This document shows positions 2,714 to 22,293 of a stretch of DNA of 22,293 nucleotides, in pieces (position 1 is the stretch's first letter; every line of letters begins with the position of its first letter). The DNA is from a virus. The DNA is taken from positions 1-22,293 of IMG/VR virus record IMGVR_UViG_3300030107_003943. One strand, 5' to 3'. Below the pieces are notes generated by a model. The model worked only from the letters and a program-made list of their open reading frames with translations, had not been told where the DNA came from and ran no database searches. The position numbers and the translations under genes are program-made.

Positions 2714-3484
2714 ATGGCAAAAGGATTTACCGTTAAAGCAAATACGCCCAAGGTTACTAAAAAAGAAGACTGGGATATTGCTGCTATTAAAGAACGGATG
2801 AAAGGAAAGACAATTGTATTTTGTCTACCAGGAAGAGGATGTTCATATATCTTTCTGAAGAATTTTGTACAACTCTGTTTTGATATGGTTCAAAATGGAA
2901 TGAGTATACAAATCTCTCAGGATTACTCTTCTATGGTAAACTTCGCAAGATGTAAGTGTCTAGGAGCAAATGTATTACGTGGTCCTAAGCAGATACCTTG
3001 GGATGGTAAACTCAAGTATGACTATCAGTTATGGATTGACTCGGATATTGTCTTTGACTCAAACAAGTTCTGGCAGTTATGTGACTTGTCTGTTCCTGCA
3101 GAAGGTGAAGAGAGAGGTATTACTGCTGGTTGGTATGCTACAGAGGATGGTAAAACTACATCTGTCGCACACTGGTTAGAAGAAGATGATTTCCGCAGCA
3201 ATGGTGGAGTCATGAATCATGAAACTGTTGATTCTATGGGTAAGCGTAAGAAGCCATTCACCGTAGATTACACAGGTTTCGGTTGGGTAATGATTAAGAA
3301 GGGTGTATTTGAATCACTTGAGTATCCTTGGTTTGCTCCTAAGATGCAAGTATTTGAATCTGGTGCAGTTCAGGATATGTGTGGAGAGGATGTTAGTTTC
3401 TGTCTAGATGCTAAAGAGGAAGGACACGAGATCTGGTGCGATCCTCGGATACGTGTAGGTCACGAAAAAACTCGTATTATCTAA
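2714..3484 (+). CDS. Putative GT-A-type glycosyltransferase
   Basis: This encodes a 256-residue soluble protein. A Rossmann-like start is suggested by KTIVFCLPGRGCSY (32-45). A DxD-type motif follows strand LWIDSDIVF (106-114, Asp109 and Asp111), as in GT-A glycosyltransferases that bind a nucleotide sugar through a metal ion. Downstream are AGWY (138-141), VDYTGFGWVMIKKGVFE (184-200), GEDVSFCLDAKEEGHEIW (224-241) and a late His250 in RVGHEK. The ED plus late His arrangement resembles the catalytic-base and metal-binding region of GT2-like enzymes. Homologues of this type occur in marine cyanophages, where they are usually hypothetical; acceptor and sugar cannot be predicted. A strong sigma70 promoter precedes it, and the next gene starts nine bases after the stop, so it probably heads an early operon ending at 4071. 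Confidence 0.6.
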   Translation: MAKGFTVKANTPKVTKKEDWDIAAIKERMKGKTIVFCLPGRGCSYIFLKNFVQLCFDMVQNGMSIQISQDYSSMVNFARCKCLGANVLRGPKQIPWDGKLKYDYQLWIDSDIVFDSNKFWQLCDLSVPAEGEERGITAGWYATEDGKTTSVAHWLEEDDFRSNGGVMNHETVDSMGKRKKPFTVDYTGFGWVMIKKGVFESLEYPWFAPKMQVFESGAVQDMCGEDVSFCLDAKEEGHEIWCDPRIRVGHEKTRII

Positions 3485-4266: not shown

Positions 4267-4668
4267 ATGCCTCTAGAACGGGTTAGTCAAGGATTTAAGG
4301 ATATCAGTATGTCTTTTGAGAGCAATCCTCTCACTAAAGACCTTATTGCGATCAAAAATGAGACTGCGATTGCACGTTCTATACGAAATATAGTATTTAC
4401 ACTGCCTGGAGAGAAGTTTTTTAACCCAAGTTTTGGTTCTGATATCTCTGGATCACTATTTGAGAATATTGATGACATTACAGGAGGTATAATTGAGGAT
4501 CAACTACGTCAATCTATCAATAATTATGAACCAAGAGTGAATTTGATGGAAGTACGAACTAATCCTAACTTTGATAATAATGCTTTTGATGTAACTATTA
4601 CGTATGAAGTGGTTGGAGCAGATATTCCACCACAAGAATTAGAATTTGTGTTGCAACCAACAAGATAA
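4267..4668 (+). CDS. 25: Baseplate wedge subunit gp25
   Basis: This encodes a 133-residue protein, close to the 132 of T4 gp25, of the gpW/gp25 lysozyme-like family (TssE in type VI secretion). The family hallmark EPRV is at 88-91 in NNYEPRVNL. ETAIARSIRNIVFTLPGEKF (32-51) and NPSFGSDI (53-60) are also typical of gp25. In T4, gp25 sits in the baseplate wedge core and binds gp6 and the sheath initiator, so it links baseplate to tail sheath. The start at 4267 follows a late-promoter octamer at 4239. The stop is followed after one base by the gp6 ATG, so the two are almost surely co-translated, matching stoichiometric assembly of the wedge. Confidence 0.95.
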   Translation: MPLERVSQGFKDISMSFESNPLTKDLIAIKNETAIARSIRNIVFTLPGEKFFNPSFGSDISGSLFENIDDITGGIIEDQLRQSINNYEPRVNLMEVRTNPNFDNNAFDVTITYEVVGADIPPQELEFVLQPTR

Positions 4669-4669
4669 A

Positions 4670-6652
4670 ATGCCTTTAGTTAATTTTGCTAACCTAGATT
4701 TTGATCAGGTTAAGACTACTCTTAAAGAATACCTACAATCCAACTCAAATTTTACGGATTATAACTTTGAGGGATCTAATTTATCGACTATTTTAGACGT
4801 ATTAGCATATAACACCTACATTACTTCTTATAATGCTAACATGGTTGCCAATGAGGTATTCATTGATAGTGCAACTTTAAGAGAAAATGTAGTATCATTA
4901 GCAAGAAATATAGGATATTTACCTCGTTCAAGGACTGCAGCAAGAGCAACAGTTAGTTTTTATGTAGATACATCAAATGTTATCCCTGTTCCTGCTTCAT
5001 TAACCCTTAGAGCAGGTCCAGTAGCTGCAACTTCCAGTGCTTTTGGTAATTCTTCACTTGTTTTTTCCATTCCAGAAGATATTACACGACCAGTTAGAGA
5101 TGGTAAGGCATATTTTAACGATATTAACATATATGAGGGTACTCTTTTAACTTCAGAATTCACAAAATCATCTTCAGACCCAAATCAGAAGTTTATTTTA
5201 CCAAATTCAGGTATTGATACGTCTTTAATTAAGGTTTCTGTTAAAAGTAACTCATTTGCGACAGCTGAGACTCAATATAGTTCTCAAAATAGTCTTTTTG
5301 ACATTACTGGTGAGTCAAAAGTCTTCTTTTTACAGGAAGTAGAGGATGAAAGATATGAAGTGTTCTTTGGAGATGGTATTTTTGGTAAAAAACTAGAGGA
5401 AGGTAACGTTGTTATTGTAGATTACATTGTTTCTAGTGGTGATGGTGGAAATGGAGTTCAAAATTTCCAATTTTCTGGAAAAATTACATATTCAAGGAAT
5501 GCTCAAGAATATAATGTTGTAAATGGTATCTCTTTATTAACTACTGGGTTACAATCTTCGGGTGGTGAACAAATTGAAGCAGTTGAATCGATTAAAAAGT
5601 ATGCTCCTCGTGTATATGCTTCTCAAAACCGAACTTTAACAGCAAATGACTATGAAACTCTAATTCCAGCTAAAATTTATCCTGAAACAGAGTCAATTTC
5701 CGTTTTTGGAGGGGAAGATTTAGTTCCACCTCATTATGGAAAGGTTTTTATTAGCATAAAACCCCGTTCTGGCGACTTTTTACCAAATTTAGTCAAAGAA
5801 AACATTAGAATGAAGTTGAAACAGTATGCAGTAGCTGGAATTGTTCCAGAAATCCTTGATTTGAAATATTTGTATATTGAAGCACAATCAAAAGTTTATT
5901 ATAACAGTAATTTAGCACCTTCAGGAGCTGATGTTTCAAGTTTAGTGCAAAATAATGCAAATAAGTATGCAGAATCGACAGAATTAAATAGATATGGTGC
6001 AAGATTTAAATATAGTAAATTCTTGAATATTATTGATCAAAGTCAAGATAGTATTACCTCAAATATTACTACATTGACAATGAGAAGAGATTTGAGAGTA
6101 TCTTTGAATACTTTTGCTGAATATTCTATTGGTTTTGGTAATCAATTTCATATTAAAAATATGAGTGGGTATAATATTAAATCTTCTGCATTTTATGTGC
6201 AGGGAAATAATAATCCTCTTTATATTGGTGATATTCCTAACACAAATAGAGAAGTTGGTAATTTATTCTTCTTTACTGTTCCTAGTGTAAATTCAACAAC
6301 TCCAACTATTGTTAAAAGAAACGTAGGAACAATTGATTATATAAGTGGTATTGTGACCTTAAATCCAGTTAATATTTTATCAGGAAAAATTAAAGATGGT
6401 CAAACAATTGTAGAAATTGAGGCATGTCCTTATTCAAATGACGTTATCGGATTACAGGATCTTTATTTGCAACTAGATATAAGTAATAGTACGTTTGAAA
6501 CTGTTGTTGATGAAGTTTCTTCGGGATTGGATCCTTCAGCATCAAACTACGTTGTATCTTCAAGTTACTCTAATGGAACTTTGGTACGATCAGGTGGAAG
6601 AAATGATGATAATACCATTACAGGCACATCTACTGTAGCAACAACTTACTAA
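4670..6652 (+). CDS. 6: Baseplate wedge subunit gp6
   Basis: This encodes a 660-residue protein, the same length as I recall for T4 gp6, of the gp6 / baseplate J-like family. Typical parts are the N-terminal block FEGSNLSTILDVLAYNTY (33-50) with SATLRENVVSLARNIGYLPR (67-86), the J-like VFFGDGIFGKKLEEGN with VDYIVSSGDGGNG (around 230-265), and YAPRVYASQNRTLTANDYET (around 310-330). gp6 dimers join neighbouring wedges into the inner baseplate ring. The frame opens with TTG at 4646 inside gp25, but the ATG at 4670, one base after the gp25 stop, gives the expected MPLVNFANLDF start. The C-terminal ~160 residues are Ser/Thr/Asn-rich. The giant gene follows after 17 bases, with AAGAG as a weak ribosome site. 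Confidence 0.95.
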   Translation: MPLVNFANLDFDQVKTTLKEYLQSNSNFTDYNFEGSNLSTILDVLAYNTYITSYNANMVANEVFIDSATLRENVVSLARNIGYLPRSRTAARATVSFYVDTSNVIPVPASLTLRAGPVAATSSAFGNSSLVFSIPEDITRPVRDGKAYFNDINIYEGTLLTSEFTKSSSDPNQKFILPNSGIDTSLIKVSVKSNSFATAETQYSSQNSLFDITGESKVFFLQEVEDERYEVFFGDGIFGKKLEEGNVVIVDYIVSSGDGGNGVQNFQFSGKITYSRNAQEYNVVNGISLLTTGLQSSGGEQIEAVESIKKYAPRVYASQNRTLTANDYETLIPAKIYPETESISVFGGEDLVPPHYGKVFISIKPRSGDFLPNLVKENIRMKLKQYAVAGIVPEILDLKYLYIEAQSKVYYNSNLAPSGADVSSLVQNNANKYAESTELNRYGARFKYSKFLNIIDQSQDSITSNITTLTMRRDLRVSLNTFAEYSIGFGNQFHIKNMSGYNIKSSAFYVQGNNNPLYIGDIPNTNREVGNLFFFTVPSVNSTTPTIVKRNVGTIDYISGIVTLNPVNILSGKIKDGQTIVEIEACPYSNDVIGLQDLYLQLDISNSTFETVVDEVSSGLDPSASNYVVSSSYSNGTLVRSGGRNDDNTITGTSTVATTY

Positions 6653-6669
6653 GAGATTAATCCAATAAA

Positions 6670-9600
6670 ATGACCATAAAAAGAGTTCAATTTAGTAATA
6701 TTGTTCAGAATCAGTTGCCTACTTATGTTAGGACTGATTTTCCATTAATCTCTGAGTTTTTAAAGACATATTATCAAGCACAAGAGTTTCAAAGTGCTCC
6801 TATTGACCTGGTTCAAAACATTGATCAATATACTAAAATTAGTGAGCAAACTGGATTAACCGAAACTACAATTCTTGATGCTAATATTACTGAATATGAT
6901 ACAACGATCCCTGTACAAGCACTTCCTAATGGAACAAAGGGATTTCCAGACTCTTATGGATTGATAAAGATTGATGATGAGATAATCACATATACAGGAA
7001 AAACAGCTACTTCTTTCACTGGTTGTGTTAGAGGATTTTGTGGTATTTCCAATTATAAATCTGAGGGGGATCCAGAGCAACTTGTTTTTGATCAAACAAC
7101 GGCTGTTGCTCATGATGGTAATTTATTTGATTCTAATACAGGTGCAATAAGTCGTAAGGGAGTTAAGATTCATAATTTAACAGTTCTTTTCCTTAAAGAA
7201 TTTTTAGTTAAATCAAAAAAACAATTATTACCTGGATTGGAAGATAGAACCTTATCTTCGGATTTAGATCAAAATATTTTTATAAAACAAGCAAAAGATT
7301 TTTATTCAAGTAAAGGTACTGATAAATCTTTTGAAATTTTATTTAAAGCCTTATATGGTAAGAGTGTAGAAATTATAAGACCAAGAGATTTTCTTTTTAC
7401 TCCTTCTAATGCAAACTTTAGAATAACTAACGATTATGTTGTTGAAGCATACGATGGAGACCCATTAGACTTAGAACAAGCAACACTATACCAAGATGCT
7501 TTTGGCGACCTTACAAAGGCATATGGACCCGTTACAAACATCGAAAAGATTGATGTTGGTGTAGGACAAACCTACTACAAACTAAGCATGGATGCTGGTT
7601 ATAATAGGGATTCAAGAGTTGATGGTGCTGTATATGGTAATTTCTCTGTTCATGCTCAAACAAAGGTAATTGGTGATGTTGGAGTTGGTCAATCTTTTAT
7701 AGATGTTGATTCAACTGTTGGATTTGCTCATTCAGGTAATTTAGATGTAGTTTATAGTGATTCTACTTCGGGTATTATTTCATACACTTCATTAACTGTA
7801 AATGAATTTCAAGGAGTCTCTAATGTTGTAGGAATAATTTCTGATACATCTAATATTGGTATTAACACTTATGCATATGGAGCAGCCTTTGGTAATCCCG
7901 ATGAAACAGTTAAAGTAAAAATAACTTCAGTATTAAAGAAACTTGATTATCCTAAAGATACTTATTCTTATTCAGATAATGATAAAGCACGAATTAAAAC
8001 TTTAGGTATTAATGATAAGAAATTTAAATCAAGAGATTGGTTTTATAATACTGCACCCATCTATAAAGTTCATAGTATAGAATTATTAGATTCTTCTGAT
8101 TATACATATAAAGTTAATTTATTCAAACTTCATTATCTTAGAGTAGGTGATTCTGCAGCAATTGTTCCTCCTGATGGTATTCCATTAGCAACAACTGTAA
8201 TTGACATTACAGGTGATACTTCTATGACTATTAGAGGTCAGGGAGTTCTTGATATTAGTGCTACTTATACCTTTAAGAGAAATATTTTAAAAACTTTATC
8301 TAATGTTTTAACTGGAGCACAAGTATACTCCACTAATGTTCTGAATACTTATAAAAATGATGGTAAATTATTAGTTGCATCTTCATCTATACCTTCTTAT
8401 AATTCTCAGGCACTTAATACCACTTATAGAAAGGTTACCTTTAGTGGAACTTTTGTTGGAGAAGATTTATTAATTGGGGATCATACATTCCGTACAGGTG
8501 ATGCAGTTTGGTATTCATCTAATACAATAGAACAAACTTATACTGATCCACTAACTCTTGAATCAAAGATTAGATTTGTTGAAGGACCTAAGTTGTTTGA
8601 TGAAGGCCTTTATTTTGTAAAAAGAGATACTACAAGTGCTTTAACAATTAAATTAGCAACTAGTAGATCAAATCTTTATAACCAAGATTATGTCAGTATT
8701 GAAAGTGAAAGAATTGTTACCGACAATACTATCACACCTTATAAGTTCAATGATAAGGCATTAAAATCACAAAGATTAGTAAGAGAAGTATGTCCACCAA
8801 ATAATGATGGAGTAGTTACTGAAACAATTCCTGGTGCTACTGGTATTTTAATTAATGGTGTTGAGGTTCTTAATTATAAATCAAATGATCTTATTAGATA
8901 TGGTAAAATTGAAGAACTTGAAGTTACTTCAAGTGGATCTGGTTATGATGTAATTAATCCACCAGTTTTAAATGTTTCTGATACTGTTGGATCTGGTGCT
9001 ACTGGGTATGCAGGTATTACTGGAACTTTAACTGAAATCAGAGTAACTGATGAAGGTTTTGACTATGAAGATATTCCTACTATAAAGATTGCTGGTGGTA
9101 ATGGTCAAGGGGCTTCTGCTTCAGTTAATATGAAGTTGGTTGATCATGCACCTCTTTTCAATTCGGAAGGTGCTGCAGAAAAAGTAGGACTTACAACTAA
9201 TACAATTGGATTTAGTACATATCATAAATTTAGAAATGCTGAGAAAGTAGTTTATATAACTGATGATCAGTTAGCAGTTGGTGGAATTACTACTGAGGCA
9301 GTTTATCATGTTCATAAGGTAGATGACCATACAGTTAAAATTCATAAGACAGAAGGAGATGCAATTGCTGGTATCAATACTGTTGATTTGACTTCTTATG
9401 GATTAGGTCAACATAAATTAAAATCTTATAACAAAAAATCTGTATTAGAATCTATTAATATAGTAAATTCAGGAGTTGGGTATCAAAATAAGAAATTATC
9501 TGCAGTTGCTACTGGAATTAATACAGCATTAAATTCAATTAATATAAAAAACCATCTTTATAAGAATGGTGAGATTGTTACCTATTCATCTACAGGAACA

Positions 9601-12600
9601 GAAATTAGTGGAGTATCTTCATCTAATCAATATCAAGTTATTGTTGTTGATAATGATAATTTCAAACTTGCTAATGCTGGAGTGGGTGGAACTAATAGTT
9701 CTAATTACGATAAGGGAATTTATACAGAATTTAGTGATATAGGAAGTGGAGTCCATCATTTTAATTATCAACCAATCACTGTTTCTTTAACTGGTAAGGT
9801 TGGTATATCTTCAATAGGAACAGAAACATTTGAAGCTACTGTTCAACCTGTTTTTAGAGGTGAATGTACTTCAGTTCATTTGGAAAATACTGGAGTAGGA
9901 TATGGTTCATCAGATATTGTTAATTTTGATCGTCCACCTGAGGTAACTTTAATTCCAGGAGCAGAAGCACAACTACAACCTATTGTTGATGGTGCTGGTA
10001 AGATATATGAAGTTCTAGTATTAAATGGCGGTAAGCAATATATTTCACCACCTGATTTGGTAGTAAATGGTAGTGGAGTAGGTGCTGTAGTAACTCCTAT
10101 TATAGAAAATGGATCAATAATTTCAGTTAAGGTTCTTGAGAGTGGTGTTGGGTATAATGCAAGTGATACTACAATAGATGTTGTGTATGCTGGATCAGGA
10201 GTTAAATTTAATAGTGTTCTTCAATCTTGGAGAATTAATTTATTTGAAAAGAATTTTAATTCATTTACGGATGATGATGGATTTATTACCGAGGGACGTA
10301 ATGCAGATTATGAACTTCAATATACTCACATATATGCACCTCGTAAATTAAGAGAGGCTGTATATGCAAGAAATTCTGCTGGTGATGTTTTATATGGTAA
10401 ATCTGATCTAACAAGAGTTTCTAGTGTTGAAGTTGAGTCTACAGATCATTCTCCAATAATTGGATGGGCATATGATGGAAATCCAATATATGGTCCTTAT
10501 GGTTATGTTGAACAAACTGGTGGTGCAGTAACTTTGATGAAGTCTGGTTATTCATTAAACTTAAAAGAAAATAGACCACCATCCGATGCTTTCCCTGAAG
10601 GTATATTTGTTGAAGATTATTCTTATAAGAAAATAACAAACGAATCTTATCTAGATGAAAATAATGGAAGATTCTGTGTTACTCCAGAATACCCATTAGG
10701 AACTTATGCATATTTTGCAACTATTGATCCTATTGCTTCTGATACTGGTGGTCCTTTTAATCAATACAGAAGACCAATATTTCCTTATTTAATTGGAGAT
10801 AATTATCAGTCTATTCCTAATGATTTTAATTATAGATCAGATTCTAATCAAGAATCTTATAAATTAAAGGATACTGCCTGGTTAAGAAATATTGATCCTT
10901 ATAATTTAATGGAAGGTAATCTACAATATGAATATGTTTTCCTTCCAAATAAATTAAATCAAGTTACTGATATTAGTACAGTAAATCCAGGTGTTATAGA
11001 CACTGTTGGAATTGAAACGGGTGGTAATCTTTATAGGGTTGGTGATAAAGTAGTATTTGATAATGTAGGGACTGAGGGAACTGGAGTAAATATTCAAGCT
11101 TCTAGAATTCTTGGTAAAGAAGTAAGTTATATCAGTGTTGCATCAAGTACTGTGACTGGAGTAGAGATTTATCCTGCTTCTAATAAAGGTGTATATCAAT
11201 TAGTTGCTGCTGGTCCACATGGATTTAAAGATAATGATTTAGTTTCGATTAGTGGGTTATCTACTACTTCATCTAAGATTGGTGGAGTATGGAGAGCAGG
11301 TATTACAACAACTGCGTTTACCTTAACTGGAATTGGTACTACAACTATTGGAGTTGCTGCAGATAGTGTAACTGGAATAGTTACTTACTTTAACGTTAAA
11401 GGAGATCTTACAGAATTAAGATCTAATGATGTTTTAGGGATTGGAACAGAACAAATTAAGGTTCTAAATGTTGAACCAGAATATTCTAGATTTAGAGCTC
11501 TTAGAGGAATTAATACAACTGGAGTTGCTCATACTGTTACTACAGTACTTAATTTAGATCACAGAACTATAAAGGTTAATGCTGGATTTAATACCACTTA
11601 TGATTATAGAGTAAATAATGAACTTTACTTTGAACCACTTCATACTGTTGGACTTGGTACTATTGCTGCAGGACCTGGAGGTACTGCTGTTGGGGCTGGT
11701 TATACCCTTGATTTAGGTAATCCAAATCCTGGAGTTGGAGTAAGTGAAATATTTGTTCCACTTAGATCACTTTATATTAGGAATCATGGATTAGAAACAG
11801 GAGATCAATTAACTTACAACACAAATGTAGGTGCTGGATTGTCTGTTATGTTGGATACTCAATCAACAACTCAGATAACAACATTAGCAGATCAAACGAC
11901 TGTTTATGCTGCAAGGATTAGTAATGATTTAATTGGTATATCAACTGTTAAAGTTGGTGTAGGTACAACAGGAACTTTTGTTGGAATTGCAAGTACAGAA
12001 CAAAGTTCTTCTACAATGTACTTTACTGGTCTTGGAACTGGTTTATACCATAGTTTCGTAACTAACTTTAGTCCAATTACTGCAGAGATTACTAGGAATT
12101 TAGTCACTGTTGCAACTGCTTCTACTCATGGATTAGAAGGATCAGATACTGTTTGGATTGATGTAAATCCATCTAATACAGGAATTAATACTTTTGTTTA
12201 TAATGATTTTAATAGAAGACTTACCGTTAATGCAGAAGATTTTACTGCTGCTGGTGTTAATACATCAACGAATGCAATAACCATTACTGATCATGGATGG
12301 GAAAGTGGAACGAAGGTTATCCATACCGCAACTACTCCTGCTGCAGGGCTTTCTAATAATGGAATTTATTATGTATTCAGAGTTGATGATAATACAATTA
12401 AATTAACGGACAATAAGTATAATGCAACTACATTAAAACCACCTATTATTGGTATTACTAGTGCATCTGCGGGAACAATCAGACCAATTAATCCCCCAAT
12501 TAAAGTTTATAAAAATTCTACTGTAACATTTGATCTTTCTGATGGATCTTTATCTTATGTTAATAATGGAACTGAATATCCTGCTTTTGAATTAAATTTC

Positions 12601-15600
12601 TATAAGGATCAAAATTATACTGAAATATGGGATAAATCTACAGATTCAACATTGTTTAATGTTCTAAGAACTGGAACTGTTGGTATAACTGCTGATGCTA
12701 AAGTTACATTAACTGTTAATGATAAAATCCCTCAAACTCTTTTCTATAGACTTGATCCAATACATGAAAGCGATCTTCCTACACCTAAGAGTGAAATTGT
12801 AGTTGACAAAGAAGTTAATTCCTCAAGTCAAGTTCAGAGTAAAGAGAGTGTATATAATGGAAGATATAATATTGGCATAACTTCAACAACAACATTTACT
12901 TATAGCATTGCTGAAACTCCTGAACTTAGTACTTATAGTTCTGCACCTGCATTACTTTCATATGAGACTGATTCTTCTTTAGCTTTTGGTGCTATATCTA
13001 AGTTTGAAATTAAGAATCCTGGAAGAAATTACTATTCACTTCCTGGTATTACTACTATTAATTCGGGTACTGGTGCAGGTGCTATTATTAGTGTTGGTAG
13101 TTCTACTATTGGTAGAGTTGGTAAAACTAATATTCAGAATATTGGTTATAATTTCCCAATTGATACTACGATAAGACCTGAAGTTAATTTGGGAACTATA
13201 CTTGATATGGAAGTTTTCACATCTTTTGAGTCTATTGGGATAAACTCAAGAGGAAGAGGATATAGTTCTGCACCACAATTATTAGTATTTGATGGAAAAA
13301 CTAAGAAACAAATTAAAGATATAGATTTGAAATATGAATTGGGTGATACAAATGTTACTATCCTTAAGAACACTACTGGAATGAGTAATGTAGCACCTAC
13401 TATTCTTCCTACACAGAATAATAATGGTGTTGGTATTTCTACTGTTGGATGGTCTACTAGTACATATGACGTAACACTTACTTTAAATACTGGATTTAGT
13501 ACAGAAAATTCATTCCCGTTTGCAGTAGGTGATAAGATACTTGTTGAAGGTGTTAGTGTTGGGGTTGGATCTACTGGAGCAGGATATAATTCTGCAAATT
13601 ATGATTATAAACTCTTTACAGTTAATGGACTTGATCAGAATTTAGGTGGAATTGGTGGAACTATTGGTTATAGACTTGATAACTCATTATTGGATGGAAG
13701 GGTACCTGGAGAATTTAATTCAACAAATTCTATAGGAAGAGTAATTCCAGAGAAATATTTCCCATTATTTAATGTTAAATTAAAACCAAATGATTTCTTA
13801 GAAGGTGAAACTGTTACTTCTGGAGATAATACGGGTTTTGTTGAATCTTGGGATCCTAAAGTTGGAGTTCTTAATATATCAACTTCTGATGAATTTGAAA
13901 AAGACGATATTATTCTTGGAGAGAGTTCTAATAGTCAAGGAAAAATTGAATCTGCTTTGGATTTCCATAGTACTTTAGAAACGGGAGTATTCTCTAGAGT
14001 AGAAAATGGTTGGGAAACTTCTTCTGGATTTATTAATGACAACGTACAAAGAGTTCAAGATAGTTTATACTATCAGAATTTCTCTTATTCATTAAAATCT
14101 GAAGTTGATTTTGATACATGGAATGATGTTGTTTCTTCAACTAATCATACTGCAGGATTTAAGAAGTTCTCTGATTATCAATTAATTTCACCTACAAATA
14201 CATCAGAAGCTACATCTAGTGTTGGATTGTCAACTGATCAAACTAATGTAGATATTGTAAGTGATCTTATTGGTACTGGTGATCTAAATTGTGTTCATGA
14301 TTTTGATTTAGTCTCTGAAAATGCACTTGCTCATGATCGTGGAACTTATTCAGATGAAGTAGTATTTAATAGTACAATTCTTACGGATTACTTTGAATCC
14401 GTAGGTAATAGAGTTCTAGAAATTGATGATATGAGTGGATCTTTTAATAGTAATCCACGTTCTACTCCTTTTAGTGTTGTATCTCAATTCCCATTGAATT
14501 CAAGGCAGTGTATGAAGTATATCACCTATGTAAGAGATAGGAGATATGTTGGTCAAAGACAGATCATGGTGGTTGATCTTGTTCATGATGATTCCTTTGG
14601 TTATATCAACCAGTACGGTCAAGCAGGAACAGTTTATCCTCTTGGTTCATTTGACTTTAATATTATTGGTACAGATGGAAGATTATTATTCTATCCCAAT
14701 AAGTTTAAGGTTAATGATTATGATGTTGTAGCTGTTGCTTATAATCTTGATAATAATCTTTTGGGAATTGGTAGTACTAGTCTTGGTTGTGCGGAAATAT
14801 TTACAAGTAGTACTGCAATTGCAAGTGGAGCAACTGAAACTCTTGTTTCTATTGGTTATACTTACAGATCATTAAAGGTCTTAGCATCTATTACTGGTTC
14901 TACTCATAATGAGTATGAAATGGAGGAGATTAATCTTATCCATGATGGAACTACTGTTGATATAATGGAGTATGGTCAACTTACTTCTAATCTTACTAAT
15001 TATGTTAATGTATCTGGATTTGGAACTTTTGTACCATCTATCTCAGGAACTGATATTAATCTTGATTTTAAGGCAAATACAGGTATTGCTTGTACTGTTA
15101 ATACCATTGTAGTTGGACTCAGTAGTGAAGCATATGTTGGTGTTGATACTAATCAACTTAAACATGTTGATTTAGAGTCTAGAACTACAACTATTGCAGC
15201 TTCTGGTTCTCCTGGTATACACACAGTTGGTAAATATCTAACTTTATCAGGTACAGATGATCATTATGATGCTGCTTACTTTATGATTCAGGTTTCTGAT
15301 ACAACTAATAAGACTTATGAGATGTCAGAACTATTGATGGTTGATGATTATAACACTGATTTGGGAACTACTGAGTCATATATTGTTGAATATGGTAATG
15401 TTGCAACTGTGTCTGGATTAGGAACCTTTGGAGCACAGGTTAATACGAGTGCAAGTGCCAAATATTCTGAATTGATGTTTACTCCTAATGCGGGTATTGC
15501 CGTACAGGTTAAGGTGTTTATGAATGCCTTCCAGATTCAAGATGATGAGAAGGATATTATTGAATTTGCTAATGGTTCTATAGAGACAGTTTATGGTCTC

Positions 15601-18600
15601 TATGAAGGAACTGAGAACTCAATTAAGAGATCATTCCCATTAACTCATAGGGGTAATGATATCTTCAATAAAGATTTCATTGGTAATGATTCAACTATTG
15701 TAAGTACTATAAATGATACGATTAGATTGCCTAATCATTTCTTTGTTACGGGTGAAAAAGTAAAATATGTTCATGCTGGTTCTGGTACTACCATGGCTAT
15801 TGGTTGTGAGACAACTACTTTTAGTGGAGTTGGTGTAACTGATAAATTACCTGGCGATCTTTATATCTACAAGGTTAATGAAGATTCTGTTAAGATTGCT
15901 ACAAGTGCAGAGAATGCTTTAAAAGTGATTCCTGAAGTTGTTGGTATTAATACAGTTGGAATCGGAGTTTCTCATAGATTTGCAGCAATCAATCAAAACT
16001 CAAAGGCTTTACTTGCTCTTGATAATATTATTCAATCTCCTGTTGTTGCAACTTCAGTAACAACTGGTCTTGCTAAGACATGTTATACAACAGATGATCT
16101 ATTAACCTTTACTGGTATTACATCCTTTATTGGTGGAGATTTGATTAAACTTGGTGATGAGATAATGAGAATTGATGGAGTTGGTATTGGTAGTACTAAT
16201 GTCATAAGAGTTCGTAGACCTTGGATGGGAACTACTTTACAGAATTATGCACCAGCTACTCAAGTAACTAAGGTTAAAGGAAATTATAATATCGTAGCAA
16301 ATACTTTAACATTCTCTGAAGCACCTTATGGAAACCTTCCATTTGGTACATCTACTAATCCGCCTGATGATAGAGATTGGACAGGTATATCAACATCTTC
16401 AAGTTTCCAAGGAAGAACGTTTATGCGTTCGGGTGTTGAGGATACCACAGATGAAACTTATGCAAAGAATGTAGTTCTTGATGATATTTCTACAGAATTT
16501 ACTGGATCTAGAAGAAACTTTAATTTAAAATCAGACGGATCTAATATTACTGGTATTGCTACTGCTAATGGAGTAATTCTTATTAATGATGTATTCCAGG
16601 GACCAGGTGCTTTATTAGATTATACAATGAATGAGAATGCTGGTATTACCTCTATTAGGTTTACTGGAACTGCAACATCTATTGGTAGTGATGTTAATAC
16701 TTCAAATCTTCCTATTGGTGGTGTAATTGTATCTGTTGGATCTACTGAAGGATGGGGATATCAACCTCTAGTTGCTGCTGGTGGTACTGCTACAGTATCT
16801 ACTGCAGGAACTATTAGTGCTGTTACTCTTAGCAATGCTGGATCTGGATATAGATCAGGTATTGGACAATTAGTTAATGTTGGTATCCAAACTCAATCAG
16901 ATGCTGATACTACAAGAATAACTGGTATTGGTACTGCCTTTATTGGAACTGATGGAGCTTTAACTGGTATTGCAGTTACTAATACAAAAGTAATATACAG
17001 ACCAAGAGATATTTCTAATGTTGGATACAACTCAGTAACTGGTATCAGTACAATCACAACTGGACGTGATCATGGATTAAGTGTTGGTGATGAGATTGCA
17101 CTTTCAGGAATCGCACTTACTTGTGAATATGCTCCTCCTTTAGGAATTAACACTGCAATTTATGATGGCGTTGCTGGTATTATGACAGTCTTTACAACTA
17201 CTGCTCATGGATTAGTAGTTGGTAATAAGACTAAGGGTAATGTAGTAATGACTGGATTAGCATTTACTTGCGATCTTGATAGTGGAGCATATCAGCATAT
17301 CTACCCAAGAAATAGAGATAGATTCTATGATACTGCAATTGAAGTTACTGGAGTTGGAAATACATTAACTGCAAGCAATGCTGTATATGATCCTGTAGTG
17401 GGTATTGTTACTATCACAACAACTGCTAATCATGGACTGGCAATTAGTGATAAGATTACTATTGCTGATAATTCATTAACCTTTACATGTGCTAAAGATA
17501 ATGATGCTACTAAGCATACCTATCCTAGACCTGGTGATTATGCAAGTGGTAGATGGTTATCTGTTCTATCTGTTCCTGGTGCTAAGAGATTTTCTGTTAA
17601 GATTCTTGATTATACTCCTTCAACTAATACTACTGCCCATACCTTCGTTGAGGCTGCATCTTCTGGTATTACTACACAAACTGGAGATATAACATTTAAT
17701 GTAACTGCTGCTGATCCTAAGTTCCAATATGCACATACATTTGTTGGTGTTGGTACAACTGGACCAGTTAAGAGTGGTGGTGCATATGCTCATAACTTTA
17801 TTGGAGCAAAACCTGGAGCATTGATCAGTGGTGGTAGTTATCTCCATTCATTCTCAAGTGCAGTAACTGGTGGAGTAACTATTACAGGGGTAGGTACAAC
17901 TACCCCCACAGACGCTACATATGACGCTGAGACGGGCGATTTAGTACTTACCATCTCTAACCATGGTGGTGTTGTTGGAGGCACTGTAGGGATCGCTACA
18001 GGAGGTATTTCATTCAAGTGTTCTATGGATGGATATGAGACTATTCATGCATATCCTCGTCAAAGTGATCCAATTGGTGAAACAACTGCATCTATTACTG
18101 AAGTAACAGGAGATACTGTTACGATCAATGTTGGTATTTCTACTTTAGTTACATTTACTCCGACTGGTGCTACTTATGATGGTGCTACTGGAGATATGGT
18201 TCTAACTGTATCGAGTCATGGTTTACGTGGTTCTACAGCACATACCGTAGTACATGCAGACTATAATCCTACTACAGGTATTATGACGTGTATGGTTCCA
18301 AACCATCCATTTGTTAATGGAGATAGAGTTAAGTTTGCTGATAATTCTTTGACCTTTACTTGTGCAAAAGATAGTCATGCAACTAACCATACTTATCCAA
18401 GAGTATCTGATCCTAATGCTAATAAGTGGTTATCAGTTACTGGTGTAACTACCAGCGTCTTTGAAGTTCAGGTATTGGATACAATTCCATCCACAAATAC
18501 TGGTATTCATACCTTTGTTAGTGCAACTACTAATGGTATGACAAAAGCAGGAGAATCGGTTCGTTTAGCAAATGAAGGATTTACATTTACTTGTGAAATG

Positions 18601-21024
18601 GACCAACATGGTAGTGAGCATTCTTATCCTCGTGGTACGGATCCAGCGTATAATACTTCAGTATCTGTTGGATCAACAACTGCTGATACTCTTACATTAA
18701 ATGTTGGAAGAAGTCCATTTAGACAATATCCTGCTAATACTGCAACTTACTACCAGACAACTGGTGATATGGTAGTTGGAGTAGGAACTCATAATATAAC
18801 GCAAGGAGATACTATTAAACTTGGTAGAGAATCATTAGTCTTTACTTGTGATAAGGATAGTAATGCTACTAGACACAAGTATCCTAGAGAAGGTGATCCA
18901 TCTTATGCAGGTGTACCAGTTGCAGGTATTGTAAGTGCAACAGGATTTAGTGTTGATATTGGTGTTACAACAACTACTAATTACTACACTGGGCAAGGTA
19001 GTGCATCAGTTCAACCTGTAATTATTGCTCCTAGACCAACTGACGAAGCTGCACCTGGTGCAACAGTTCTAACAGTTATTAATAATAAGTCTTTTGAGGT
19101 TCAAACTGGAATTTCTTCACGTAGACATTACTATGCAAGAGGTGGACGTGTTGATAAACCAATGGAAGTTGTAATTGATGATCCACTTTCTTATACTAAT
19201 ATTCCTCTACAATATGCTACTGGAAGTAGTGGTATTGGATCCGAAGCAACCATTGACATTGTAGTTGGACAAGGATCTAGTGTAACTTACTTTACAATGA
19301 ATAATACTGGTTATGCTTACGGTATGAGTGAGACATTAACAGTTCCATTTGGTGGTGGAAGTGGAATTCCTACAAGTACTTCCTTTACAAATAATCAATT
19401 TGAAATTGAAGTTACTAAAACCTTTACTGATGAGTTTACTGGATGGACGGTTGGAACATTAGAAGCACTTGATGATATTGCTGGTCTCTTTAATGGTGGA
19501 AGAATGAATTTCCCATTAACACTAAATGGAACTCAGGTTTCTATTAGAGCTGGTAAGGGATCTGTTGTTAATGTTCAAGATGTTCTTCTAATCTTTATTA
19601 ATGATATTCTTCAGGTTCCTGGTAAGGGATATAAATTTGATGGTGGTAGTATTATTGAATTTACTGAAGCACCTAAAGATGGTGATACTTGTAAGATCCT
19701 TTTCTATAAGGGAACTGGAGATGATGTAGATGTTGTCTTTAGAAATATTATTGAAACCGTTAAGGTTGGTGATGATCTACAAATCTTTAATAAGGATGAT
19801 CAAGGAACTTACTGGAAAGAGGATCCTAGAACAGTTACTGCTGTAACATCTACAGATACGGTGGATACCGTACCATATTATGGTCCTGGTAATACTTCTA
19901 TTGAATCGATGCTACGTCCTGTTAAATGGTGTAGACAGACTGAAGATAAGATTATTAATGATCTTCCTGTTGGAAAATCTAGAGAATTGTATGAACCAAT
20001 TATTAATCCAACATCTCATATTATTCAATCTGTTGGTATTGGATCTACAATGGTTTATGTTAGTAGTGTAAGACCATTCTTTAATCCACAGAATGAAATT
20101 GCAACTGCTTTATTAAGTTTCCAAGATAAAGTTAAGATTGTAAGACCTGCAGGTACTAAAGTTGCTGCTGCGGCAACGGCTGTAGTTTCTGTTGCAGGAA
20201 CTATTTCTTCCTTTACTATATCTGAAGGTGGTGTTGGATATGGTGCTACACCTACTGTAAGTATTGGTAAGACTACTGTTGGAGTTGGTACAACTGCTGA
20301 TGCTATTGGAACTGCTTCTATTACTAATGGAGTGGTTACTGGTATTGCAGTTTCAGTTCAAGGATCTGGTTATAGTCAATTAAGTCCTCCTGCAGTTCTC
20401 ATTGGTCCACCTACTACTAAAGAAGAAGAGAACAGTGTTAATGATTATCATGGGGATGAAGGTGTTATAGTTGGATTTGGTACAACAGCAGTGGGTGTAG
20501 GTACAACCGCATTTATGTTTGACTTCTTTATTCCAGTTGATTCTCCATTAAGACAATCTCTTTATATGGTGGATTCTGCTGCTAGTGGAAGTCTTACAAC
20601 CGTCAGTACATTAGTTTCTGGTGACTTCTTTATTGTGGATGAATCTAATGTTGGTAGTGCAACTACATCCATAGTCTCTATTACTAAAGATACTCTTGAT
20701 ACAGTTGGTACGGGAATATCCTTTATAGATAATGTATATCAAGTTTATAGTGCAGAAACTGTACAAGTAAATATTCTAGGTGTTGGTTATACTGATGTTA
20801 GAAGAATATTTGCAGCAGTTAAAGATCCAATGCACTTTGGATCTACTTCTGGAATTACTTCTTCTCCTGATTATGGTAGATATAGTTGGGGTAAAATAGA
20901 CATGGTATCTAGAGGTCTCACTACATCTTATACTGCATATACTTCAAGCGGAGTTGTAGGTCTAACTACTTCTCCAAGCGTTGAAAGATCTGCTTCTCTG
21001 AAGTATAAGTCTTATAACGTTTAA
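6670..21024 (+). CDS. Giant baseplate/virion protein, gp7-like N-terminus plus repeat modules
   Basis: This encodes an unbroken 4784-residue protein, in the gp6-gp8 interval where T4 has gp7 (1032 aa). Residues 1-290 look like the conserved C-terminal part of gp7: FPLISEFLKTYYQ (24-36) and DFYSSKGTDKSFEILFKALY (210-229) recall T4 gp7 DFYSTKG...FLFKVLY. Next come GxGY modules (756, 935, 1075, 1159), a YHYH-like domain (1200-1370) and HGL modules (1517, 1706, 1820). NDNVQRVQDS is at 2456-2465, followed by a ~134-aa tandem duplication (2705-2970), two INDxxQxPG modules (3305, 4310) and seven C-x8-H-x-YPR repeats (3480-4075), the first degenerate. The C-terminus holds YSWGKI (4738). There is no signal peptide or membrane segment. 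It probably joins wedge assembly through the N-terminus and exposes the repeats at the virion surface, possibly for host contact. N- to C-terminal GC content rises. Homologues vary greatly in length among cyanophages. Confidence 0.93.
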   Translation: MTIKRVQFSNIVQNQLPTYVRTDFPLISEFLKTYYQAQEFQSAPIDLVQNIDQYTKISEQTGLTETTILDANITEYDTTIPVQALPNGTKGFPDSYGLIKIDDEIITYTGKTATSFTGCVRGFCGISNYKSEGDPEQLVFDQTTAVAHDGNLFDSNTGAISRKGVKIHNLTVLFLKEFLVKSKKQLLPGLEDRTLSSDLDQNIFIKQAKDFYSSKGTDKSFEILFKALYGKSVEIIRPRDFLFTPSNANFRITNDYVVEAYDGDPLDLEQATLYQDAFGDLTKAYGPVTNIEKIDVGVGQTYYKLSMDAGYNRDSRVDGAVYGNFSVHAQTKVIGDVGVGQSFIDVDSTVGFAHSGNLDVVYSDSTSGIISYTSLTVNEFQGVSNVVGIISDTSNIGINTYAYGAAFGNPDETVKVKITSVLKKLDYPKDTYSYSDNDKARIKTLGINDKKFKSRDWFYNTAPIYKVHSIELLDSSDYTYKVNLFKLHYLRVGDSAAIVPPDGIPLATTVIDITGDTSMTIRGQGVLDISATYTFKRNILKTLSNVLTGAQVYSTNVLNTYKNDGKLLVASSSIPSYNSQALNTTYRKVTFSGTFVGEDLLIGDHTFRTGDAVWYSSNTIEQTYTDPLTLESKIRFVEGPKLFDEGLYFVKRDTTSALTIKLATSRSNLYNQDYVSIESERIVTDNTITPYKFNDKALKSQRLVREVCPPNNDGVVTETIPGATGILINGVEVLNYKSNDLIRYGKIEELEVTSSGSGYDVINPPVLNVSDTVGSGATGYAGITGTLTEIRVTDEGFDYEDIPTIKIAGGNGQGASASVNMKLVDHAPLFNSEGAAEKVGLTTNTIGFSTYHKFRNAEKVVYITDDQLAVGGITTEAVYHVHKVDDHTVKIHKTEGDAIAGINTVDLTSYGLGQHKLKSYNKKSVLESINIVNSGVGYQNKKLSAVATGINTALNSINIKNHLYKNGEIVTYSSTGTEISGVSSSNQYQVIVVDNDNFKLANAGVGGTNSSNYDKGIYTEFSDIGSGVHHFNYQPITVSLTGKVGISSIGTETFEATVQPVFRGECTSVHLENTGVGYGSSDIVNFDRPPEVTLIPGAEAQLQPIVDGAGKIYEVLVLNGGKQYISPPDLVVNGSGVGAVVTPIIENGSIISVKVLESGVGYNASDTTIDVVYAGSGVKFNSVLQSWRINLFEKNFNSFTDDDGFITEGRNADYELQYTHIYAPRKLREAVYARNSAGDVLYGKSDLTRVSSVEVESTDHSPIIGWAYDGNPIYGPYGYVEQTGGAVTLMKSGYSLNLKENRPPSDAFPEGIFVEDYSYKKITNESYLDENNGRFCVTPEYPLGTYAYFATIDPIASDTGGPFNQYRRPIFPYLIGDNYQSIPNDFNYRSDSNQESYKLKDTAWLRNIDPYNLMEGNLQYEYVFLPNKLNQVTDISTVNPGVIDTVGIETGGNLYRVGDKVVFDNVGTEGTGVNIQASRILGKEVSYISVASSTVTGVEIYPASNKGVYQLVAAGPHGFKDNDLVSISGLSTTSSKIGGVWRAGITTTAFTLTGIGTTTIGVAADSVTGIVTYFNVKGDLTELRSNDVLGIGTEQIKVLNVEPEYSRFRALRGINTTGVAHTVTTVLNLDHRTIKVNAGFNTTYDYRVNNELYFEPLHTVGLGTIAAGPGGTAVGAGYTLDLGNPNPGVGVSEIFVPLRSLYIRNHGLETGDQLTYNTNVGAGLSVMLDTQSTTQITTLADQTTVYAARISNDLIGISTVKVGVGTTGTFVGIASTEQSSSTMYFTGLGTGLYHSFVTNFSPITAEITRNLVTVATASTHGLEGSDTVWIDVNPSNTGINTFVYNDFNRRLTVNAEDFTAAGVNTSTNAITITDHGWESGTKVIHTATTPAAGLSNNGIYYVFRVDDNTIKLTDNKYNATTLKPPIIGITSASAGTIRPINPPIKVYKNSTVTFDLSDGSLSYVNNGTEYPAFELNFYKDQNYTEIWDKSTDSTLFNVLRTGTVGITADAKVTLTVNDKIPQTLFYRLDPIHESDLPTPKSEIVVDKEVNSSSQVQSKESVYNGRYNIGITSTTTFTYSIAETPELSTYSSAPALLSYETDSSLAFGAISKFEIKNPGRNYYSLPGITTINSGTGAGAIISVGSSTIGRVGKTNIQNIGYNFPIDTTIRPEVNLGTILDMEVFTSFESIGINSRGRGYSSAPQLLVFDGKTKKQIKDIDLKYELGDTNVTILKNTTGMSNVAPTILPTQNNNGVGISTVGWSTSTYDVTLTLNTGFSTENSFPFAVGDKILVEGVSVGVGSTGAGYNSANYDYKLFTVNGLDQNLGGIGGTIGYRLDNSLLDGRVPGEFNSTNSIGRVIPEKYFPLFNVKLKPNDFLEGETVTSGDNTGFVESWDPKVGVLNISTSDEFEKDDIILGESSNSQGKIESALDFHSTLETGVFSRVENGWETSSGFINDNVQRVQDSLYYQNFSYSLKSEVDFDTWNDVVSSTNHTAGFKKFSDYQLISPTNTSEATSSVGLSTDQTNVDIVSDLIGTGDLNCVHDFDLVSENALAHDRGTYSDEVVFNSTILTDYFESVGNRVLEIDDMSGSFNSNPRSTPFSVVSQFPLNSRQCMKYITYVRDRRYVGQRQIMVVDLVHDDSFGYINQYGQAGTVYPLGSFDFNIIGTDGRLLFYPNKFKVNDYDVVAVAYNLDNNLLGIGSTSLGCAEIFTSSTAIASGATETLVSIGYTYRSLKVLASITGSTHNEYEMEEINLIHDGTTVDIMEYGQLTSNLTNYVNVSGFGTFVPSISGTDINLDFKANTGIACTVNTIVVGLSSEAYVGVDTNQLKHVDLESRTTTIAASGSPGIHTVGKYLTLSGTDDHYDAAYFMIQVSDTTNKTYEMSELLMVDDYNTDLGTTESYIVEYGNVATVSGLGTFGAQVNTSASAKYSELMFTPNAGIAVQVKVFMNAFQIQDDEKDIIEFANGSIETVYGLYEGTENSIKRSFPLTHRGNDIFNKDFIGNDSTIVSTINDTIRLPNHFFVTGEKVKYVHAGSGTTMAIGCETTTFSGVGVTDKLPGDLYIYKVNEDSVKIATSAENALKVIPEVVGINTVGIGVSHRFAAINQNSKALLALDNIIQSPVVATSVTTGLAKTCYTTDDLLTFTGITSFIGGDLIKLGDEIMRIDGVGIGSTNVIRVRRPWMGTTLQNYAPATQVTKVKGNYNIVANTLTFSEAPYGNLPFGTSTNPPDDRDWTGISTSSSFQGRTFMRSGVEDTTDETYAKNVVLDDISTEFTGSRRNFNLKSDGSNITGIATANGVILINDVFQGPGALLDYTMNENAGITSIRFTGTATSIGSDVNTSNLPIGGVIVSVGSTEGWGYQPLVAAGGTATVSTAGTISAVTLSNAGSGYRSGIGQLVNVGIQTQSDADTTRITGIGTAFIGTDGALTGIAVTNTKVIYRPRDISNVGYNSVTGISTITTGRDHGLSVGDEIALSGIALTCEYAPPLGINTAIYDGVAGIMTVFTTTAHGLVVGNKTKGNVVMTGLAFTCDLDSGAYQHIYPRNRDRFYDTAIEVTGVGNTLTASNAVYDPVVGIVTITTTANHGLAISDKITIADNSLTFTCAKDNDATKHTYPRPGDYASGRWLSVLSVPGAKRFSVKILDYTPSTNTTAHTFVEAASSGITTQTGDITFNVTAADPKFQYAHTFVGVGTTGPVKSGGAYAHNFIGAKPGALISGGSYLHSFSSAVTGGVTITGVGTTTPTDATYDAETGDLVLTISNHGGVVGGTVGIATGGISFKCSMDGYETIHAYPRQSDPIGETTASITEVTGDTVTINVGISTLVTFTPTGATYDGATGDMVLTVSSHGLRGSTAHTVVHADYNPTTGIMTCMVPNHPFVNGDRVKFADNSLTFTCAKDSHATNHTYPRVSDPNANKWLSVTGVTTSVFEVQVLDTIPSTNTGIHTFVSATTNGMTKAGESVRLANEGFTFTCEMDQHGSEHSYPRGTDPAYNTSVSVGSTTADTLTLNVGRSPFRQYPANTATYYQTTGDMVVGVGTHNITQGDTIKLGRESLVFTCDKDSNATRHKYPREGDPSYAGVPVAGIVSATGFSVDIGVTTTTNYYTGQGSASVQPVIIAPRPTDEAAPGATVLTVINNKSFEVQTGISSRRHYYARGGRVDKPMEVVIDDPLSYTNIPLQYATGSSGIGSEATIDIVVGQGSSVTYFTMNNTGYAYGMSETLTVPFGGGSGIPTSTSFTNNQFEIEVTKTFTDEFTGWTVGTLEALDDIAGLFNGGRMNFPLTLNGTQVSIRAGKGSVVNVQDVLLIFINDILQVPGKGYKFDGGSIIEFTEAPKDGDTCKILFYKGTGDDVDVVFRNIIETVKVGDDLQIFNKDDQGTYWKEDPRTVTAVTSTDTVDTVPYYGPGNTSIESMLRPVKWCRQTEDKIINDLPVGKSRELYEPIINPTSHIIQSVGIGSTMVYVSSVRPFFNPQNEIATALLSFQDKVKIVRPAGTKVAAAATAVVSVAGTISSFTISEGGVGYGATPTVSIGKTTVGVGTTADAIGTASITNGVVTGIAVSVQGSGYSQLSPPAVLIGPPTTKEEENSVNDYHGDEGVIVGFGTTAVGVGTTAFMFDFFIPVDSPLRQSLYMVDSAASGSLTTVSTLVSGDFFIVDESNVGSATTSIVSITKDTLDTVGTGISFIDNVYQVYSAETVQVNILGVGYTDVRRIFAAVKDPMHFGSTSGITSSPDYGRYSWGKIDMVSRGLTTSYTAYTSSGVVGLTTSPSVERSASLKYKSYNV
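7297..7380 (+). other. gp7-like motif within the giant protein
   Basis: Residues 210-237 read DFYSSKGTDKSFEILFKALY then GKSVEIIR. From memory, T4 gp7 has DFYSTKG, then a Lys/Phe helix FLFKVLY and NEEVEIE in its C-terminal third, so this is the best anchor for calling the N-terminus gp7-like. A profile comparison would settle it. Confidence 0.6.
10267..10780 (+). other. YHYH-type domain inside the giant protein
   Basis: About residues 1200-1370 contain HSPIIGWAYDGNPIYGPYG (1260-1278), then NGRFCVTPEYPLGTYAYFAT (1332-1351) and a Pro-rich end. This conserved arrangement is that of the YHYH domain found in marine cyanophage structural proteins and some bacterial secreted proteins. The biochemical role is not established; conserved Tyr/His/Asp suggest metal or ligand binding. 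Confidence 0.75.
14782..15580 (+). repeat. Tandem ~134-residue duplication within the giant protein
   Basis: Two successive beta-rich domains share the order YEM[ES]E, then EYG[QN][LV], then G[FL]GTF. Positions are YEM 2749 and 2883, EYG 2767 and 2907, GTF 2785 and 2918, so the period is 133-140 residues. Sequence identity outside these anchors is modest, indicating an old duplication. The domains resemble a beta-sandwich arrangement. Confidence 0.7.
17110..18895 (+). repeat. Cys-x8-His-x-Tyr-Pro-Arg repeat array
   Basis: Six complete copies of F-[TK]-C-x8-H-x-Y-P-R lie at Cys 3534, 3607, 3784, 3898, 3975 and 4060, each with exactly eight residues between Cys and His. A degenerate copy (LTCEYAPP) precedes them. 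Copies 3607 and 3898 share a long variant ending W-LSV...F-V..LD..PSTNT..HTF, and the others a shorter one. Each unit also contains a [ADN]xYD..TG start and an HGL/GD turn. Spacer units with [TN/S]F after His (HTF, HNF, HSF; 3657, 3689, 3708, 3726, 3947) are inserted among them. Confidence 0.85.
17887..17906 (+). repeat. Perfect 7-bp hairpin inside the giant gene
   Basis: GGGGTAG (17887-17893) and CTACCCC (17900-17906) are separated by GTACAA. It opens a ~120-base stretch with about 50% GC and uncommon codons (ACC CCC, GAC GCT, ACG GGC), against the AT-rich surroundings. It could be a recombination joint or an mRNA structure. Confidence 0.6.
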
Positions 21025-21055: not shown

Positions 21056-22293
21056 ATGGCTGCCATAATAACTGATCAGATCAGAATATTAAATGCGAAG
21101 AATTTTGTGTCTGGAGTGCAAACCAGCACTAATTCATATTATTCTTTTATTGGTTTACCCAATGCAACTGATATTCAAACTGATTGGGATGCTGATCCCC
21201 CTTCCCCAAAAGATAATTTTGATGAAGAGAATGATTATTGGGATACTATTATTGCTCTGAAGAAGATTACTTCTACGGATGTAAGGCAAGTTGTTCAGAA
21301 GAGATTATGGACATCTGGAACTACTTACGACATGTATCGTAGTGATTATAGTCGTACTAATACCGCAGCAGTATCTGGTGCAACTAATTTATACAATGCA
21401 ACTTTTTATGTAATCAATACTGATTATAGAGTTTATGCTTGTCTAAGAAATGGAATTGATCCTGATAATCCTAATGGAAAACCTTCACTTGATGAACCAA
21501 CATTCACAGATCTAGAACCAAGAGCAGCTGGAACTAGTGGTGATGGATATCTTTGGAAGTATCTTTATACAATCAAACCAGGTGATATTGTAAAATTTGA
21601 TTCTACAGATTTTATTCCTGTTCCTGATGCATGGGAAACAAATACTGATGATTCAGCAGTTAGAGATAATGCTGTTGATGGATCTATCAAAGTTGTAACT
21701 ATTACTGATAGGGGTGTTGGCGTTGGAACTGCTAACAGAACTTACAGTAGAGTTCCCATTAGAGGTGACGGTACTGGAGCAGAGTGTACTATTGTTGTTA
21801 ATAATGATCAACAAGTAGAATCTGTAACCGTCTCGAATCAAGGACAAAATTATACTTTTGGAAATGTTGATCTTGTGGAAGGTGGAGTTCCTACTGGATC
21901 TACTAGACCAACCTTTGATGTAATCATGTCTCCACCTGGTGGACATGGTTCTGACATCTATAGTGAATTGGGTGCATATAATGTTCTCTTATATTCAAGA
22001 ATTGAAAATGATATTGAAAATCCTGATTTTGTAACAGGTAATCAAATAGCACGAGTAGGTATTGTTGAGAATCCAAAAGCCTATGGAACAACTGCTAATT
22101 TGAGTTTGGATAAAGCAAGTGCTACTCAAGCATTAAGATTAACTGGTGCTGGTTATAGTAGTGCTACTTTTACAGCAGATGCGTTTGTTACTCAAACAGT
22201 TGCTACTGGATCTACTGCTGTAGCAAGAGTTGTAAATTATGATCAAACAACTGGTGTATTGAAATTATGGCAAGATCGCACTATGGCTGGATT
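21056..22293 (+). CDS. 8: Baseplate wedge subunit gp8 (cut by window end)
   Basis: At least 412 residues are in the window and the frame stays open at its end. The start MAAIITDQIRILNAKNFV, then YYSFIGLP (24-31), WDADPPSPKDNFDEENDYWD (43-62) and TDLEPRAAGTSGDGYLWKYL (153-172) are typical of cyanophage gp8. In T4, gp8 (334 residues) is a wedge component next to gp7 and gp10. The present protein is already longer than that. Its middle holds glycine-rich modules, RGVGVG...RGDGTGAECTIV then VSNQGQNYTFG (around 220-275), and TGAGYSSATF (around 362-371). They resemble the GxGY modules of the giant neighbour. The ATG at 21056 is chosen because it matches the expected N-terminus and lies just behind the late promoters. 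Confidence 0.92.
   Translation, partial: MAAIITDQIRILNAKNFVSGVQTSTNSYYSFIGLPNATDIQTDWDADPPSPKDNFDEENDYWDTIIALKKITSTDVRQVVQKRLWTSGTTYDMYRSDYSRTNTAAVSGATNLYNATFYVINTDYRVYACLRNGIDPDNPNGKPSLDEPTFTDLEPRAAGTSGDGYLWKYLYTIKPGDIVKFDSTDFIPVPDAWETNTDDSAVRDNAVDGSIKVVTITDRGVGVGTANRTYSRVPIRGDGTGAECTIVVNNDQQVESVTVSNQGQNYTFGNVDLVEGGVPTGSTRPTFDVIMSPPGGHGSDIYSELGAYNVLLYSRIENDIENPDFVTGNQIARVGIVENPKAYGTTANLSLDKASATQALRLTGAGYSSATFTADAFVTQTVATGSTAVARVVNYDQTTGVLKLWQDRTMAG

Follow-up and report, generated by a model that had tools for sequence, protein, structure and literature searches.

A Cys-x8-His-x-Tyr-Pro-Arg motif recurs along one giant protein encoded in the window (the whole stretch of 22,293 nucleotides that we analyzed, from a 22-kb virus record whose closest matches at the DNA level are records of marine viruses and Synechococcus phages), and its strict spacing raises the question of what the motif does. 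The original prediction had read the six complete copies as a possible metal-binding or covalent-linkage module. We addressed this question by delimiting the repeat in the window and its relatives, by modeling its structure and by weighing the candidate roles against how each motif residue is conserved. The open reading frame (ORF) lies on the + strand at 6670–21024 and encodes 4784 residues. C-x8-H-x-Y-P-R matches it exactly six times, all within 17269–18888, with motif starts at residues 3534, 3607, 3784, 3898, 3975 and 4060 (DNA starts 17269, 17488, 18019, 18361, 18592 and 18847; 42 bases each). Neither C-x8-H nor YPR occurs in the 4784 residues outside these six copies, and the ORF contains 21 Cys in total. 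At the DNA level, the motif pattern gave six matches on the + strand and none on the − strand, and a reversed control pattern gave none in the window, confirming both the exact spacing and the placement of the copies.

Each motif lies within a longer unit, which we delimited on the + strand by combining the motif match with a unit hidden Markov model (HMM). Unit 1 (17146–17370) carries CDLDSGAYQHIYPR at 17269–17310, and unit 2 (17368–17616) carries CAKDNDATKHTYPR at 17488–17529; unit 3 (17902–18144) carries CSMDGYETIHAYPR at 18019–18060, unit 4 (18244–18483) carries CAKDSHATNHTYPR at 18361–18402, unit 5 (18484–18717) carries CEMDQHGSEHSYPR at 18592–18633, and unit 6 (18733–18972) carries CDKDSNATRHKYPR at 18847–18888. 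The count of six complete copies was correct, but a seventh, truncated copy at 17011–17127 (+ strand; unit HMM hit), which keeps the Cys and has no H-x-YPR, had gone unmentioned. The HMM also detected the N-terminal part of a further, motif-free unit at 18157–18228 (+ strand). The claim that every unit has only one Cys fails for unit 4, which contains both Cys 3874 and Cys 3898. Units 2 and 3 are separated by a spacer (17638–17860, + strand) of short (A/Y)-x-H-(T/N/S)-F repeats. This second, shorter repeat between barrel units, H-(T/N/S)-F-(V/I/S), is also found all along the main − strand ORF of another collected locus (L101), in places with a spacing of ∼18 to 19 residues, and at least four copies of H-(T/N/S)-F-x-x-A are present in 31 ORFs among the collected loci.

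The giant ORF occupies the gp7 position of a T4-like marine cyanophage and encodes a baseplate wedge protein, as assigned from its phrog_2885 match, its neighbors and its annotated equivalents. In a profile search, phrog_2885 ("baseplate wedge subunit") matched residues 4 to 3660 of the 4784 (E = 0, 3831.6 bits), and baseplate wedge genes flank the ORF on both sides, matching phrog_261 and phrog_219 upstream and phrog_438 downstream. A gp25-like gene (4267–4668) and a gp6-like gene (ending at 6652) lie upstream, and a further baseplate wedge gene begins at 21056. In the ORF list, the gp6-like ORF starts at a TTG within gp25 (window 4646–4670); translation more likely begins at the ATG at 4670. 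Positions 500–2700 of the window, ∼2 kb between the first ORF and a conserved phrog_1574 gene (2714–3484), hold short ORFs only. Giant equivalents in cultured cyanophages are annotated as gp7 (P-SSM4, S-RIM8, P-RSM3 and Syn30) or as virion structural protein; these cyanophage gp7/phrog_2885 proteins share gene order, family and giant size with the window ORF and bear the same units, although motif copy number varies from phage to phage (strict counts of six in the window, four and three in relatives, and 11 in a P-RSM6 stretch). Pelagimyophages and cyanomyophages have been reported to be without T4 gp7, apparently substituted by VrlC, whose operon also encodes YHYH and other binding domains (PMC7029224). 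Compared by position and domain alone, the window ORF resembles this type of gp7 replacement, occupying the corresponding place and containing a YHYH domain at residues 1255 to 1353.

We then asked how far the unit extends beyond the window. An HMM seeded with the six window copies and iterated over 174 loci, which is the search that the original prediction had proposed, did uncover a family: 937 units, of which 514 are nonredundant (<70% identity). The unit is ∼80 residues long, the gap between consecutive units is usually 5 to 6 residues (the peak of the spacing distribution), and one ORF reaches 23 units. Profile searches placed the unit in no Pfam or NCBIfam family, consistent with the earlier statement that no named domain was recognizable, and the literature searched held no description of the repeat; it is a distinct module defined by the strict motif. 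Two protein queries, the second being the family consensus, returned 246 and 329 phage records, all of them cyanophage or marine-virus, and some module-bearing proteins carry a tail fiber annotation. Two of the collection hits (L152 and L160) contained no unit. Bacterial carriers of the unit were considered and rejected; genome-assembly hits were mostly to marine metagenome-assembled genomes, and the single isolate contig tested matches a cyanophage. That 188-kb contig (L164, NZ_RMVE01000006.1) is filed under Nonlabens xiamenensis; the 8 kb tested gave a 98.7% match to cyanophage P-TIM40 (188.6 kb), and the contig is, therefore, probably a cyanophage genome inside a bacterial assembly.

Alignment of the 514 nonredundant units yielded the family signature F-x-C-x2-D-x5-[H/K]-x-Y-P-R-x2-D-P. 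The Cys/His/YPR spacing originally described stands, but as an invariant set it was too small, lacking the Phe at Cys−2, the Asp at Cys+3 and the Asp-Pro after YPR. Cys is present in 99% of units (507/514) and the Pro of YPR in ∼100%, with Phe at Cys−2 in 90%, Asp at Cys+3 in 89%, Tyr and Arg in 91% each, and Asp at Cys+16 in 92%. The His position is different: it holds His in 354 units (69%), Lys in 101 (20%) and other residues in 59 (11%), and the His share is an upper estimate because the loci were collected by a DNA pattern that favors the His form. In a set chosen by tblastn, where retrieval did not demand His (n = 119), His fell to 74 (62%) and Lys rose to 33 (28%), with 12 others, while Cys was kept in 118. 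Cys was retained in all 354 His units, in 100 of the 101 Lys units and in 53 of the 59 others. The idea of a Cys/His functional pair thus fails, elsewhere in the family, on the conservation of its His. Rare units depart further from the signature; one in L065 (− strand ORF, residues 547–622) has Ser for Cys and Glu at the His position with YPR intact.

The exchange also occurs between orthologs and within single proteins. At the position orthologous to window His3793, in unit 3, two relatives of ∼60% identity (L015 and L016) have Lys, and 40 ORFs combine at least two His units with at least two Lys units. On a tree of 220 units, at least 34 His/Lys state changes were needed compared with a mean of 54.7 when labels were shuffled, indicating that the exchange has happened repeatedly and is in part inherited, with the caveat that repeats of 80 residues give poorly resolved trees. 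As judged from these sequences, another basic residue can replace the motif His, and the His is not coupled to the Cys. Against its nearest relatives (L012–L014), the window showed no amino-acid and three to four silent changes in the 36 motif codons, compared with 88 to 101 amino-acid and 133 to 152 silent changes in the 632 other codons. From the lack of amino-acid changes in the motif codons, we infer that the motif is under purifying selection and does not merely reflect recent duplication.

To place these residues in a structure, we used an AlphaFold2 model of unit 4 (18241–18486) built with 115 units. It is one compact domain (pLDDT 92.9, pTM 0.78) with seven strands (5–9, 14–18, 29–31, 37–40, 49–52, 63–67 and 73–77) and a short turn at 42–44, where model residue equals alignment column plus one. 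Column pairs 37–50, 37–48 and 39–48 co-vary, which fits an antiparallel hairpin formed by the pre-Cys strand and the strand bearing H-x-Y. Cys and His, which the metal or cross-link proposal needed close together, are probably on the same side of this one hairpin, as suggested by model strands 37–40 and 49–52 and the co-varying columns. Phe, Cys, His/Lys and Tyr would face inward, because conserved and variable columns alternate along the hairpin. A three-unit model was poorer (pLDDT 78, pTM 0.43) and does not fix the arrangement of the units.

The closest fold in the PDB was the phi92 endosialidase (4hiz; Foldseek probability 0.99, TM 0.57, E 0.27), and no PDB fold match reached E <0.001. VIA-align gave Z scores of 5.5 to 5.7, in a range (Z <8) that may reflect a common arrangement, with a phage FCWL1 head-to-tail chain (9jlf), endoNF (3gvj, residues 428–490), phi92 and UBA1/UBA6; UBA1 and UBA6 chains made up many of the top rows (Z 4.3–5.6), where a common arrangement is again possible. 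Among predicted viral structures, there were 26 matches at E ≤0.001; those with names are Synechococcus phage proteins, and many have none. Pfam profiles gave weak hits to the same folds, all below curated cut-offs: End_beta_barrel (PF12195) reached at best E 0.03 among 62 units and 17.4 bits on an undecorated module (cut-off 35), and E1_FCCH (PF16190) reached E 0.071 in one unit and 13.3 bits on an undecorated stretch (cut-off 29.5). Sequence searches yielded no convincing PDB relative. A three-repeat hit to an iota-carbonic anhydrase (sum E 3e-6, single repeats ≥0.94) was rejected as chance.

The giant ORF itself provided a further comparison. The iterated HMM found at least six β-barrel modules without the Cys/YPR hairpin, hereafter called undecorated, with the core H-x-x-x-x-G-D-x-V, at 8473–8661, 9184–9351, 9514–9675, 11764–11946, 12253–12411 and 15700–15903 (all + strand), of which the third also matches End_beta_barrel weakly (E = 0.0043, under the curated cut-off). 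Hits of the undecorated-module HMM overlap decorated units 16 times, and a profile–profile comparison of the two kinds was marginal (E 0.014–0.018, probability 1–2%). Given the fold matches, the weak Pfam hits, and the undecorated modules with their overlaps, the simplest reading of the decorated unit is a small β-barrel to which a hairpin has been added. The endosialidase β-barrel is of comparable length, belongs to phage virions and is the best PDB fold match; however, the C/D/HK/YPR hairpin is not seen there and the Pfam scores stay under the cut-off. We found no sialidase propeller in the window protein. The E1 FCCH domain has weak profile hits and structural rows in common with the unit, but its biology is different and at most the fold type would be shared.

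We favor, with moderate confidence, the interpretation that the motif is the framework of an added hairpin and that the repeated units line up as a chain of beads within the baseplate wedge. The six copies would be tandem, independently folding β-barrel domains of ∼80 residues joined by ∼6-residue linkers, located in the distal third of the gp7-position wedge protein and resembling the endosialidase-barrel/E1-FCCH type of small β-barrel. In this interpretation, C-x2-D-x5-[H/K]-x-Y-P-R-x2-D-P would make up the added β-hairpin and its return loop, with Phe, Cys, His/Lys and Tyr on the inner side packing onto the barrel and Asp(+3), His/Lys(+9), Arg(+13) and Asp(+16) presumably forming a charge network that holds the loop. 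The strict Cys–His spacing would then reflect a fixed hairpin register; such a structural latch is likelier than a Cys–His metal site because His is so often Lys elsewhere. With the three-unit model poorer than that of one unit, the geometry of the proposed bead chain is tentative, and exposed loops may contact host-surface glycans by analogy with the endosialidase barrel.

The added-hairpin interpretation accounts less readily for the Cys, whose conservation exceeds that of Asp, Tyr and Arg and, among units of <70% identity, goes beyond what mere burial usually needs; a chemical role for it is, therefore, possible. One alternative is that the Cys is the functional residue, forming an interchain or interdomain disulfide or another covalent link (for example, to the Lys variant), with His incidental; such links would make the wedge array more rigid once it has been released into oxygenated sea water. 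Among proteins at large, Lys–Cys NOS bridges have been documented (PMC8964421); in the arrays, which reach 23 units, a single Cys is repeated from unit to unit, and Cys persists where H and YPR decay, in the L175 locus described below. Yet the units contain no second conserved Cys, no pairing partner was found, the column alternation would place the Cys inside beside Phe, and a Cys–Lys bridge is inapplicable to the 69% of units with His. A cross-linked shaft had also been suggested, but T4 gp7 is not known to form a trimeric shaft. We consider this alternative unlikely. As a separate observation, L175 (FZLS01000008.1, a Rhodobacteraceae bin) has 12 unit hits in one ORF, where H and YPR are often gone and Cys remains; it is a natural series of decaying motifs.

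A second alternative, which we regard as quite unlikely, is that the hairpin contacts a host glycan or receptor, so that its motif residues are kept for binding and not for folding. In the K1F endosialidase, the polysialic-acid site is in the β-barrel, and barrel-loop mutations such as S460R change host discrimination (PMC12632334); the presence of the modules in proteins annotated as tail fibers and the variable copy number would also suit such a role. However, host-contact surfaces usually diversify, yet no part of the unit varies less than the hairpin core, and no glycan-binding family scored above threshold.

The remaining alternative is the metal site, in which the Cys and His of each unit, with a barrel His or ligands from a neighboring chain, would bind Zn or Fe. 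The C-x8-H spacing is constant in the window, the two residues probably share one face of the modeled hairpin, and a second conserved His is available at column 21 (87% of units). That His is, however, present in >90% of the undecorated modules, which are without Cys, and is thus a feature of the base fold. Lys does not ordinarily coordinate metals, and Lys in 20 to 28% of units and other residues in ∼10%, with Cys retained, together with the direct replacement of His by Lys in orthologs, argue strongly against a Cys–His site. With no second conserved Cys per unit to take its place, metal coordination is highly improbable. A catalytic Cys-His-Asp triad was rejected because of the same His/Lys exchange.

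Giant structural proteins of marine cyanophages very commonly contain this unit, a domain so far without annotation, and its fold and signature make it possible to divide large proteins now annotated as "hypothetical" or "virion structural" into domains. They also single out one question, the near-total retention of the Cys. Each barrel could carry a conserved chemical site centered on this Cys, with His and Lys as alternative partners, which would make a covalent or redox-sensitive cross-link repeated along the cyanophage baseplate arm. We think this rather improbable; if true, such a repeated Cys-centered cross-link would add a new mechanism by which phage tails are strengthened.
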